Assembly (NCBI GenBank): GCA_022452145.1
Contig: JAKURY010000014.1
Location: 1 to 56,820 of the forward strand
Direction: 5' to 3'
DNA length: 56,820 bases
Source of the DNA: Acidimicrobiales bacterium
Lineage (GTDB): Bacteria > Actinomycetota > Acidimicrobiia > Acidimicrobiales > MedAcidi-G1
This document shows, one piece after another, positions 20,929-25,317 of the stretch (position 1 is its first letter; each line of letters begins with the position of its first letter). A program made the translations under genes and the position numbers. A model generated the notes under the pieces. It was not told the origin of the DNA. It ran no database searches and was given only the letters and a program-made list of their open reading frames with translations.

Positions 20929-21076
20929 GGGACTAGCCAGTCTACGGACCTGGAACCGCTGGGCCGTCCCGACCAGGCGAAGCCGACCGCATGGCCCATG
21001 GGAGGGGCCAGTCCAGGTCCGTCGCGACCGGGCGCAACGCTGCGGGGACGCCGCAGCCGGCAGCCTGTCGTCATCG

Positions 21077-21160
21077 TGCCCGGGGCGGGACTTGAACCCG
21101 CACGACCTCGCGGCCAGAGGATTTTGAGTCCTCCGCGTCTGCCAATTCCGCCACCCGGGC
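21077..21160 (-). tRNA. tRNA-Leu(CAA)
   Basis: This 84-nt class II tRNA has acceptor GCCCGGG/CCCGGGC, discriminator A, no encoded CCA, anticodon stem GAGGA/TCCTC with loop CTCAAAA (anticodon CAA, decodes UUG), variable arm GGCC-GCGA-GGTC and T-arm GCGGG-TTCAAGT-CCCGC. A TAGGCT hexamer at 21170-21175 lies nine bases before the 5' end and is a likely -10. No U-tailed terminator follows; a GC-rich hairpin (21040-21056) does. Confidence 0.95.
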
Positions 21161-21334: not shown

Positions 21335-22510
21335 ATGATCGCCTTCACGTACTCCGGCCAGGGCTCCCAGCAGCCAGGCATGGGCGCTCCGTGGGTGGAC
21401 CACCCGTCGTGGGAACTGGTCGAGGATGCCTCGGCGGCAGCCGGGCGGGACGTGGCCCACCTCCTGCTCGAGGCCGATGCCGAGAAGCTCCGCGCCACCC
21501 GCAACGCCCAACTGGCCACCTTCGTCACCAGCATGGTCATCCTGGACGCAGTGGCCCGCCTGGGCATCGACGCAGCCGGCCACGCTGGGCACAGCCTCGG
21601 GGAGTACAGCGCCCTGACGGCTTCTGGAGCGCTCGACTTCTCCGACGCGGTGGCCCTTGTCGTCGAGCGGGGCGAGGCCATGCAGGAGGCCGCCCGGGAC
21701 CCGATCGGCACCATGGCTGCGGTTCTGGGCCTCGATGACGCCGGCGTGGAAGAGGCGTGTGCCGAGGTTGGTGGCTCCGTGTGGGTGGCCAACTACAACG
21801 CCCCGGGCCAGGTGGTAATAGCCGGTGACCCGGATGCCGTCGCCGCAGCCGGCGACGGGTCAAGGGCCCGTGGCGCCAAGCGGGTCACCGGACTGGAGGT
21901 ATCCGGTGCCTTCCACACACCGTTCATGTCCCCGGCCAGGGACCGCCTCGGCGAGGCCATAGAGCGAACCGACCTCCGGTCGCCGGAGAGCGTGGTGGTG
22001 GCCAACGTGGACGCCGGCATCCATTCGAACCCCGCAACCTGGCGGGTGCTCATGAATGCCCAGCTGTGCAGCCCGGTCCGCTGGTCCCAGACACTCCAGA
22101 CCCTGACCGGGGCCGGATTCACCACGTTCGTGGAGCTGGGCCCCGGCAGCGTTCTGACCAGCCTGGTGAAGCGCAGCCTGAAGGGGGCGCTGCGCCTCAC
22201 GGTCAACACGCCTGACGACCTCGACACCCTCCTGGACGCGTTGGCCGCACCGCTCGACGATGGCGTCCATGCACCCGAGGGAGAACACCTCTTCGCCACG
22301 GACCGGATGGTGGTCAGCCCCTGCGCCGGGGTCTTCACCCCTGTGCCGGACCTGTATCCGGGCCAGCAGGTCGCAGCAGGCGCACTCCTCGGCCACATCG
22401 GCGTAGAGGAGGTCTACTCCCCGTTCGCCGGTGAGCTCATGGGCTGGCTGGCCGTGGAAACCGAACGGGTGAGCTCATCCAAGCCGATCGCCTGGCTGCG
22501 GGCCACCTGA
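21335..22510 (+). CDS. fabD: Malonyl-CoA:ACP transacylase with a C-terminal lipoyl/biotinyl-like domain
   Basis: FabD moves malonyl from CoA to acyl carrier protein. Residues 1 to about 300 form the transacylase: oxyanion GQGSQQPGM, nucleophile Ser in GHSLGEYSA, the malonate Arg in VVERGEAMQ, and the catalytic His in GAFHTPFM. The protein is 391 aa rather than about 310. The extra end (about residues 325-391) reads VVSPCAGVFTPV...YPGQQVAAGALLGHI...VYSPFAGELMGWL, the plan of a barrel-sandwich (biotinyl/lipoyl-like) fold, but the hairpin Lys of the EAMKM motif is missing. GAGGAG lies nine bases before the ATG. It leads fabG-acpP-fabF. The 174 bp upstream hold no other gene. Confidence 0.93.
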   Translation: MIAFTYSGQGSQQPGMGAPWVDHPSWELVEDASAAAGRDVAHLLLEADAEKLRATRNAQLATFVTSMVILDAVARLGIDAAGHAGHSLGEYSALTASGALDFSDAVALVVERGEAMQEAARDPIGTMAAVLGLDDAGVEEACAEVGGSVWVANYNAPGQVVIAGDPDAVAAAGDGSRARGAKRVTGLEVSGAFHTPFMSPARDRLGEAIERTDLRSPESVVVANVDAGIHSNPATWRVLMNAQLCSPVRWSQTLQTLTGAGFTTFVELGPGSVLTSLVKRSLKGALRLTVNTPDDLDTLLDALAAPLDDGVHAPEGEHLFATDRMVVSPCAGVFTPVPDLYPGQQVAAGALLGHIGVEEVYSPFAGELMGWLAVETERVSSSKPIAWLRAT

Positions 22511-23254
<744 letters not shown>

Positions 23255-23421: not shown

Positions 23422-23658
23422 GTGAGTAACGAGAATTTCGAAAGATTCACGAAGTGTGCGGTGGAGGTCCTCTCAGTCGATGCCGGGCAGGTAACCAGGG
23501 AGGCTTCCTTCGCCGACGACCTCAACGCCGACAGCCTCGACCTGGTAGAGCTGATCATGGCCCTCGAGGAGGAGTTTGGCGTGACGGTCGAGGAGGAGGA
23601 GCTCGAGGGCATCACCACGATCGGTGGCGCCTACGACCTCATCGCCTGCAAGCTCTGA
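23422..23658 (+). CDS. acpP: Acyl carrier protein
   Basis: This 78-aa acidic four-helix carrier holds growing acyl chains on phosphopantetheine. The attachment Ser is in [13 protein letters not shown], and the recognition helix follows ([24 protein letters not shown]). It differs from many ACPs in having Cys residues at positions 12 and 76 (FTKCAVEV and the IACKL end). The GTG start is preceded by GGAG. It overlaps the fabF start (TGATG). Confidence 0.95.
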
Positions 23659-24830
23659 TGCCCCGTCGTCGGGTCGCCGTCACGGGACTGGGCGTCGTCG
23701 CCTCGTGTGGCATAGGCACCGACGCGTTCTGGGACGGCCTCTGCGGAGACGCACCGGTGGGTGACAGGCGGGTCCACGACTTCGATCCGACCCCCCACTT
23801 CAAGAACCCGAAGGAGGTCCGACGGAGCGACCGGTGCACCCAGTTCGCCATCGCGGCCGCCGACATGGCCCTCGAGCAGGCCGGCCCCCTGACCGCCGAT
23901 CCGTTCCGTAGCGGCGTGTTCATCGGTACCGGCATCGGCGGGATTGCCACCCTCGAGGATCAGATCCTGATCATGCATGAGAAAGGCCCCCGTCGGGTGT
24001 CGCCCTTCATGGTGCCCATGATGATGCCGAATGCCGCTCCGGCGGCTGTCTCCATGCGCCACGGCTTCCAGGGTCCGGCTGAGAACACCTGCACTGCGTG
24101 TGCCGCCGGCACCCATGCCGTGGCCAACGCCGCCCGCCTCATCGCCCACGGGCGCTGCGACGTTGTGCTTGCTGGCGGCAGCGAAGCGGCCTTCGTAGAG
24201 ACGGCGATAGCTGGCTTCACCAACATGACCGCCTTCTCCTCGCTCGGGATCTCACGGCCGTTCGACGCCGAGCGCGACGGCTTCGTCATGGGCGAGGGCG
24301 CCGGCATCCTGGTCCTCGAGGACTGGGAGATGGCCAGGGCCAGAGGGGCAACCATCCTCGCCGAGATACTCGGAGGGGCCAGCACGGCCGACGCCCACCA
24401 CATCACCGCTCCGTCTCCCGGCGGCGTCGGAGCCATCACCTGCATGCGCCTCGCCCTCGAGGAGGCCGAGGTGGAGCCTGACCAGATCCGCCACGTGAAC
24501 GCCCACGGCACCTCGACCCCGTTGAACGACATGGCCGAGGCCGTGGCCATGGCCGAGATCTTCGGCCCCGACGGGCCCCGGGTCACGTCCACCAAGGGGA
24601 TCACGGGCCATGCCCTCGGCGCAGCCGGCGCCATCGAGGCCGTCGCCGTCGTGCTCTCCATGCAGAAGGGGCTCATCCCCCCGACAGCCGGCTACGCCAC
24701 GGTGGATCCGGACATGCCGCCGATCGACCTGGTCACCGGATCGGCGGCCCCGTGGGAGCCGGGCATCTCGATGTCTAACTCGTTCGGGTTCGGCGGCCAC
24801 AACGGCAGCCTGGTGATCGCTCCGAACTGA
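23658..24830 (+). CDS. fabF: 3-oxoacyl-ACP synthase II
   Basis: FabF condenses malonyl-ACP with acyl-ACP. The 390-aa thiolase-fold protein has VTGLGVVASCG at the start, the catalytic Cys in NTCTACAAGTHAV, the two His in NAHGTSTPLND and GITGHALGAAG, and NSFGFGGHNGSLV at the C-terminus. The last gene of the fabD-fabG-acpP-fabF group, it uses an ATG that overlaps the acpP stop by 1 bp. No fabH (KAS III) is nearby, so chain initiation is encoded elsewhere or uses another route. Confidence 0.95.
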   Translation: MPRRRVAVTGLGVVASCGIGTDAFWDGLCGDAPVGDRRVHDFDPTPHFKNPKEVRRSDRCTQFAIAAADMALEQAGPLTADPFRSGVFIGTGIGGIATLEDQILIMHEKGPRRVSPFMVPMMMPNAAPAAVSMRHGFQGPAENTCTACAAGTHAVANAARLIAHGRCDVVLAGGSEAAFVETAIAGFTNMTAFSSLGISRPFDAERDGFVMGEGAGILVLEDWEMARARGATILAEILGGASTADAHHITAPSPGGVGAITCMRLALEEAEVEPDQIRHVNAHGTSTPLNDMAEAVAMAEIFGPDGPRVTSTKGITGHALGAAGAIEAVAVVLSMQKGLIPPTAGYATVDPDMPPIDLVTGSAAPWEPGISMSNSFGFGGHNGSLVIAPN

Positions 24831-24870: not shown

Positions 24871-25317
24871 TCAGGCGTCCTGTACGAAGACGAAGAGGAG
24901 ATCACATCGGCAGGCCTCCTCGCCGTCAACCGACGCCCGACCACTCCCCCTGCCGGCCCTGGCCGACACCCGGCCCAACTCGACCTCGAGGTCCAGCCTC
25001 TCCCCGGGTAGGACCTGGCGGCGGAACCTGACACCGTCCAGACCCCCAAACAGCGCCAGGCGACCCGCGAAGTCGGGCCGGCTGAGCAGCGCATAGGCCC
25101 CCAGCTGTGCGATCGACTCGCACATCAGGACTCCCGGGAGCGTTGGGCGACCCGGGAAGTGTCCTGCGAAGAACGGTTCGGCTCCCGTCAACTGCCAGTA
25201 GCCCACGGCCCGTTCGCCCACCGTGACCTTGGTGACCTCGGTCAGCAGCAGGAAGGGGGCCCGGTGGGGTATCACCGCCTCAGGTGGCGGCAGGTCGGTC
25301 ATCGGCTCGTCATACAC
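24871..25317 (-). CDS. fabZ: FabZ/FabA-type 3-hydroxyacyl-ACP dehydratase
   Basis: This 148-aa hot-dog protein dehydrates 3-hydroxyacyl-ACP. Conserved residues: PHRAPFLLL near the N-terminus, catalytic His in FFAGHFPGRPTLPGVLMCE and the Glu of the same segment, then VRFRRQVLPGERL. It converges on fabF, fitting the fatty-acid role and completing reduction-dehydration-condensation steps around acpP; enoyl reductase is absent. GGGAGG lies nine bases before the first ATG; a second ATG five codons in is also possible. The 123 bp between this gene and hupB downstream of HU show a GC-rich hairpin but no U-tract. Confidence 0.88.
   Translation of the reverse strand: MYDEPMTDLPPPEAVIPHRAPFLLLTEVTKVTVGERAVGYWQLTGAEPFFAGHFPGRPTLPGVLMCESIAQLGAYALLSRPDFAGRLALFGGLDGVRFRRQVLPGERLDLEVELGRVSARAGRGSGRASVDGEEACRCDLLFVFVQDA

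Follow-up and report, generated by a model that had tools for sequence, protein, structure and literature searches.

The FabD encoded in the window, the whole 56,820-nt stretch of DNA that we analysed, ends in a domain that is widespread in the type II fatty-acid synthesis operons of actinobacteria, where it forms a non-biotinylated and apparently undescribed component, here fused to the enzyme. That it occurs both fused to FabD and as a stand-alone protein beside FabD suggests that an adaptor or regulator of fatty-acid synthesis has been overlooked. Tentatively, and with somewhat less than even confidence, we propose that the tail is a non-catalytic adaptor on a tether, through which FabD docks with a partner; the likeliest partner is the acyl-CoA carboxylase that makes malonyl-CoA, and the arrangement would be comparable to plant BADC.

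The FabD ORF occupies 21335-22507 plus the stop codon on the forward strand and encodes 391 aa. Its acyltransferase part (aa 1-284; 21335-22186) is matched by PF00698 over aa 4-284 (3.3e-36) and by the FabD equivalog TIGR00128 over aa 1-281, the latter scoring 260.2 bits against a cut-off of 260.9 and thus missing it by 0.7 bit. Gln9, Ser87 (in GHSLGEY), Arg112 and His194, which we take to be the catalytic residues of FabD, with Ser87 and His194 as the active-site Ser and His, are unvarying across 34 aligned FabDs, and therefore the enzyme part looks intact. On the same strand follow a variable linker (aa 285-313; 22187-22273), a conserved tether motif, PEGEHLFATDR (aa 314-324; 22274-22306), in which G316, E317, L319 and R324 are invariant, and the BCCP-like barrel-sandwich domain without attachment lysine (aa 325-391; 22307-22507), assigned from its predicted fold, the lysine survey and profile comparisons. 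The last 67 residues correspond exactly to the interval in which the first-pass annotation had placed a biotinyl/lipoyl-like fold; the conserved unit starts ahead of them, with the EGEHLF tether at aa 315.

AlphaFold2 modelled an 88-aa construct (51 aligned sequences) as all-beta, with seven strands and a mean pLDDT of 88.2; ten-residue blocks from residue 21 on reached 94-98, and the core about 97. The full-length FabD model (34 sequences) had a mean pLDDT of 92.0 and a pTM of 0.77, and in it aa 309-319, at pLDDT <50, connect the enzyme part to the tail domain. A Foldseek search of the PDB placed biotin carrier domains in the first six ranks, namely Pyrococcus BCCP (5gua, 2evb, 2d5d), E. coli BCCP (4hr7_G, 1bdo) and Arabidopsis BCCP1 (9a87), with E-values of 1.3e-4 for 5gua and 6.5e-4 for 4hr7_G; the efflux adaptor BesA held ranks 7 and 8. 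VIA-align superposed the domain on 4hr7_G, which is E. coli BCCP taken from its complex with biotin carboxylase, with Z 12.0 and an rmsd of 1.0 Å over 67 aligned residues at 21% identity. The other Z scores were 11.8 for 5gua and 9a87, 11.2 for BesA (4kkt_A, at 3.4 Å), at most 10.8 for the remaining adaptors and 10.5 for a lipoyl domain; rows no more than 1 Z apart count as tied, so that calling the domain closest to BCCP is a modest claim, which depends on the tighter rmsd. The FabD tail is thus predicted with confidence to adopt a barrel-sandwich hybrid fold. The lysine-less biotinyl/lipoyl fold that had been read from the letters was borne out by the model, Foldseek and VIA-align, and this comparison revealed neither an unrelated fold nor disorder.

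Sequence profiles point firmly to kinship with the biotinyl/lipoyl family. Against the curated Pfam cut-offs the window tail domain matched no family, and the score of PF00364 (biotinyl/lipoyl) was not reached. Stand-alone copies from three genomes passed the Pfam Biotin_lipoyl cut-off of 22.1 bits (G045, 25.8; G038, 25.5; G043, 23.6), and that of G039 scored 21.8 bits alone and 23.5 counting neighbours. When five stand-alone copies of the fab type were scanned singly, two passed (L034, 26.3 bits; L128, 24.3 bits), L139 scored 18.7 bits, and L119 and L120 matched no Pfam family. No NCBIfam cut-off was reached by any of these five; the best models below cut-off were the acetyl-CoA carboxylase carrier for L034 and L120, YqeB for L119, secretion adaptors for L128 and none for L139. 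The AccB/BCCP equivalog TIGR00531 gave L128 17.7 bits against a cut-off of 115.2, and no listed match for the window protein. Profile-profile comparison joined the fused and stand-alone forms at E 8e-27, and true biotinyl domains were matched at 5.3e-13 by the stand-alone form and at 2.5e-9 by the fused form. A PDB search with a profile of 16 stand-alone copies retrieved 54 sequences, nearly all of them biotinyl/lipoyl proteins; a phmmer search of the PDB with the window domain alone gave no match. Because the pyruvate dehydrogenase E2 lipoyl domain (3.1e-9) and transcarboxylase 1.3S (5.1e-9) outrank E. coli BCCP (7.1e-8) in the family-profile ranking, an origin from AccB specifically is not established.

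At the lysine column defined by true biotinyl domains, the attachment lysine was present in none of 126 distinct fused and none of 44 distinct stand-alone sequences. The column is a gap in 120 of the fused sequences, the other six having A three times, D, G and Q; the stand-alone sequences have G (28), S (8), R, D and N (2 each), and A and P (1 each). Lys lies one position from the column in three stand-alone rows, and an [MLVA]K[MLVAS] triplet occurs in three others, several columns off and outside the turn. True biotinyl domains (EAMKM, ESMKM) are present elsewhere in the window genome. Since the attachment lysine is absent from every fab-linked copy aligned, the domain cannot be biotinylated in the usual way, and its sequence makes a role as a normal biotin or lipoate carrier very unlikely. 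An active biotin/lipoate carrier was accordingly rejected on the lysine survey.

The hairpin that should hold this lysine had been described as deleted, which applies in part and to the Acidimicrobiia fused form only, where it is shortened; the stand-alone copies retain a full-length hairpin without lysine. In the window FabD it is about 4 residues shorter (a 4-column alignment gap). Model strands 48-52 and 55-58 (aa 351-355 and 358-361) are linked there by a two-residue turn, aa 356-357 (22400-22405, forward strand), which replaces the AMKM hairpin of biotinyl domains. The segment at the thumb position comprises 17 residues in 26 of 41 stand-alone copies measured and is short and thumbless-like, with 11-16 residues, in the other 15, compared with 20 in three AccB-type rows and 13 in one thumbless row; only stand-alone values are given, since automatic anchoring went wrong for some fused sequences (values 8 and 17-30). 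The 17-residue segments favour a carboxylase adaptor, and the short ones speak against it. Hairpin and thumb are the parts shortened in the FabD-linked domain, and the accessible text of one study names both in BCCP as contacts with partners (PMC10863985), which also weighs against a carboxylase adaptor.

The fused form is consistently found among close relatives. A whole-protein search matched 55 of 61 genomes. Within the genus, the window genome and 15 of 16 others matched over aa 1 to 390-391 (G013 gave no match), and same-genus and same-family matches spanned aa 1 to 388-391. The first-pass annotation had called for a survey of related FabD proteins, and the C-terminal extension was found in every same-genus match. 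A scan of one genome per species yielded 118 relatives, of which 80 were kept as named loci; domain and FabD share one frame in all 80, a figure that is no census, as the scan pattern favours the fused type. Chance or mis-annotation of the tail was ruled out, the tail being in frame in all same-genus matches and the 80 named loci. The titles of these loci name Acidimicrobiaceae, Acidimicrobiales, Acidimicrobiia, Microthrixaceae and Candidatus Microthrix, others merely Actinomycetota or bacterium. Three public MAG records titled Bifidobacterium breve (L162, L180, L186) have Acidimicrobiia-type fab operons, so that their labels look wrong.

Selection was estimated from 16 same-genus FabDs (120 pairs) in four segments. 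The pN/pS ratio was lowest in the PEGEHLFATDR tether (0.104), followed by the enzyme part (0.189), the domain (0.245) and the linker (0.361); the median dN/dS values, rough given a high pS of 0.50-0.60, were 0.051, 0.111, 0.125 and 0.210 in the same order, and the tether estimate covers 11 codons only. Purifying selection acts on the domain almost as strongly as on the enzyme, a constraint that disfavours a pseudogene or relic. The tether, although largely at pLDDT <50, is more constrained than either the enzyme part or the domain, as a docking motif might be, and it is partly kept in stand-alone copies as GE.L...ER. These results bear on the idea that the tail is a structural appendix, the relic of a former carrier domain that merely stabilises FabD or its folding. 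Fusion in 80/80 named loci and the eroded lysine hairpin would suit such a relic; the strong constraint on the domain and the still stronger one on the tether, the low-confidence segment that sets the domain apart from FabD, and the persistence of the domain as a separate protein in other lineages speak against it, and we consider it very improbable.

Order-level relatives and other classes of the phylum have the domain as a stand-alone protein, about 80-130 aa long, whose gene usually lies between fabD and fabH; the first-pass annotation had not anticipated this form. In five order-level genomes (G039, G043, G045, G046, G050) the C-terminal part gave a separate match, and on reading the loci it proved to be a small ORF of its own. 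Across the phylum, 130 of 396 genomes had domain-profile matches at E <=1e-3, the weaker of which include true biotinyl domains; context was read for all 72 matches with E <=1e-6. Fab context was found for 59 of the 72. Fusion to FabD accounts for twenty, of which 16 come from the window's order (its own genome counted) and four from other classes (G073, G088, G101, G262); 32 are separate ORFs adjoining fabD, with fabH downstream in 31 and the contig end in one; and seven, from six genomes, adjoin fabH without a same-strand fabD. One (G336) adjoins a carboxyltransferase gene only. The remaining 12 lie elsewhere, in YqeB-like proteins, true biotinyl/lipoyl domains, one acc operon and one sulfotransferase-/aminotransferase-like locus. 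At this last locus (L130, G085:C117) a domain-like sequence is flanked, away from fab genes, by sulfotransferase-like and aminotransferase-like genes, named by eye.

The FabD tree requires three switches between fused and separate forms, of which starred branches force only one; many of its forks are unsupported and L125 is a long branch. The tree suggests that fusion happened repeatedly (L124 and L125 lie outside the window's order). In one genome, G043 (loci L032 and L037), the stand-alone domain lies beside fabH without fabD, and the FabD of this genome is encoded on another contig and clusters in the tree with those of other classes, an arrangement that possibly reflects gene replacement or contamination.

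Within the window's order the domain occurs in 18 of 29 other genomes, and the 11 without it belong to families f20, f23 and f28. Five of these 11 were searched for FabD: G268 has a FabD-like match (197.9 bits) and no domain, G055, G058 and G378 have no FabD match, and in G278 matches occur only inside frames of ~1,600 and ~2,400 aa. In G044, also of the window's order, acyltransferase matches are likewise confined to long frames (about 1,400-2,400 aa over G044 and G278); with completeness of 92-98%, it is as if G044, G055, G058, G278 and G378 used another fatty-acid synthase. In the same class, FabD is canonical in G104, G116, G235 and G360, and no domain is linked to their fab genes, the weak domain match in G360 being a true EAMKM biotinyl domain.

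The typical gene order at the named loci is fabD-domain, fabH, fabG, acpP and fabF, followed by fabZ on the opposite strand, and a subset that includes the window has the cluster without fabH. According to the ORF list and the gene order of relatives, fabG (22541-23254) is the next cluster gene after fabD in the window, followed by acpP (23422-23658) and an ORF containing fabF (23454-24830), whose true start is probably close to the acpP stop, all on the forward strand; a fabZ-like dehydratase gene (24871-25317, reverse strand) is convergent. The FabH-type C-terminal domains of the window genome lie on contigs C10 and C29. Immediately upstream of the fabD cluster is a tRNA-Leu (caa) gene (21076-21160, reverse strand).

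This gene order invites a reading in which the domain would tether FabD to FabH, or to ACP, as a scaffold of the initiation module that hands on malonyl-ACP, with the carboxylase uninvolved. The stand-alone copies between fabD and fabH (31 of the 72 phylum matches) and the seven more beside fabH without an adjoining same-strand fabD are consistent with such a scaffold. However, the window's family keeps the fused domain even though fabH lies outside the cluster, the domain of G336 stands beside a carboxyltransferase gene without these fab genes, and the biotin-carrier kinship suggests carboxylase partners. We regard a FabH or ACP scaffold as somewhat doubtful overall and, judged by gene order, as almost as likely as the carboxylase adaptor.

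Carboxylase genes do occur near the domain. In G336 a carboxyltransferase gene (PF01039, 5.6e-163) directly follows it, in a stretch without fabD, fabH, acpP or fabF. Of 20 neighbouring stretches, 8 (L246, L255, L259, L261-L265) have a carboxyltransferase gene behind fabF, and three more genomes have one in the cluster (L142, L153, L280). None was found within the flanks of the 80 named fused loci, and the best carboxyltransferase match of the window genome is on another contig, C16, at 54% identity. In mycobacteria, accD6 lies within the fab operon, which is not known to encode such a domain; the carboxylase link is therefore supported, not proven, by context. FabD and FabH outnumber carboxyltransferase as neighbours of the domain. 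The first-pass annotation had suggested ACP or the carboxylase behind malonyl-CoA as putative partners. Gene context is compatible with the carboxylase idea, as several lineages with the stand-alone form have a carboxyltransferase gene in the cluster, and fits a FabD-FabH partnership equally. Separately, a 251-aa lysine-less BCCP-like protein (L279, G261:C173:297-1049) is encoded with a biotin carboxylase fragment on one side and a carboxyltransferase gene on the other; we gave it no weight as carboxylase support because, of 14 genomes searched, it was found solely in its own.

We nevertheless prefer the carboxylase as partner, for three reasons: biotin carboxylase and carboxyltransferase are the enzymes that biotin carriers visit, carboxyltransferase is the sole relevant neighbour in G336, and plant BADC sets a precedent. 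In the carboxylase-adaptor model, the domain would derive from a biotin carrier and serve, without catalysis, as a module for protein-protein docking, carried as an arm on FabD by the flexible linker and the conserved tether motif. It would keep the malonyl transferase close to an initiation-stage partner, most likely the carboxyltransferase or biotin carboxylase of an acyl-CoA carboxylase, and could thereby couple malonyl-CoA supply to malonyl-ACP formation. Its mode of action may resemble that of the plant BADC subunit, assembling or restraining acetyl-CoA carboxylase, and in the window's lineage fusion would have made the link of domain to FabD permanent.

A more specific version, which we hold to be doubtful, is that the domain is the bacterial counterpart of BADC: a lysine-less carrier mimic, free or FabD-fused, that docks FabD on the acyl-CoA carboxylase so that malonyl-CoA is passed directly to ACP. 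If so, the first two steps of type II fatty-acid synthesis would form one assembly in several lineages of the phylum. Neither the fold nor the profile results set BCCP apart from related barrels, which reduces the weight of both the carboxylase adaptor and the BADC counterpart. To our knowledge, the coupling of the carboxylase to the bacterial type II fatty-acid synthase is little understood, and a lysine-less BCCP-like protein in fab operons offers a small, testable handle on this coupling and on the control of malonyl-CoA use.

BADC proteins are lysine-less BCCP-like subunits to which the accessible part of a study of the plant enzyme ascribes two roles towards acetyl-CoA carboxylase, that of glue and that of inhibitor (PMC11926652). 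The inhibitor model raises the question of whether the domain is instead a regulator, sensing a ligand or partner and inhibiting or tuning FabD or the carboxylase. Barrel-sandwich domains have many non-carrier roles, which would accommodate such a function; we found no specific support for it, however, and the same accessible text favours BADC as assembly glue (PMC11926652), so that we judge a regulator improbable.

The FabD-linked domain can be compared with several known systems. It resembles AccB/BCCP in fold (Z 12.0, 4hr7_G), in its two-fold G-rich pattern and in distant sequence similarity; unlike AccB/BCCP, it has no attachment lysine or AMKM motif, is fused to or encoded beside FabD, and has a shortened hairpin and thumb. 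The barrel-sandwich segment of YqeB (TIGR03309) is a weak profile match (3.4e-4), and the YqeB-like matches (L133, L135, L278, L281, L282, L309; judged by eye) are larger proteins in stretches without fab genes. FabD proper shares the acyltransferase part and the conserved catalytic residues with the window FabD, which adds the second, C-terminal domain. Among the matches listed in a literature search by titles and abstract starts, with few subscription papers, none was on this domain or operon. Like the present domain, BADC combines a BCCP-like domain without biotinylation motif with a fatty-acid synthesis setting, and lysine-less BCCP-like subunits are termed unique to the plant enzyme in the portion of the study available (PMC11926652). 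BADC proteins belong to plant plastids, where BCCP and biotin carboxylase are their interaction partners, whereas the present domain is bacterial, small and linked to FabD and FabH, and the two are likened by fold. The fold and the BADC precedent are already known, and what is apparently new is that a lysine-less protein resembling BCCP is conserved between fabD and fabH and, in places, fused to FabD.
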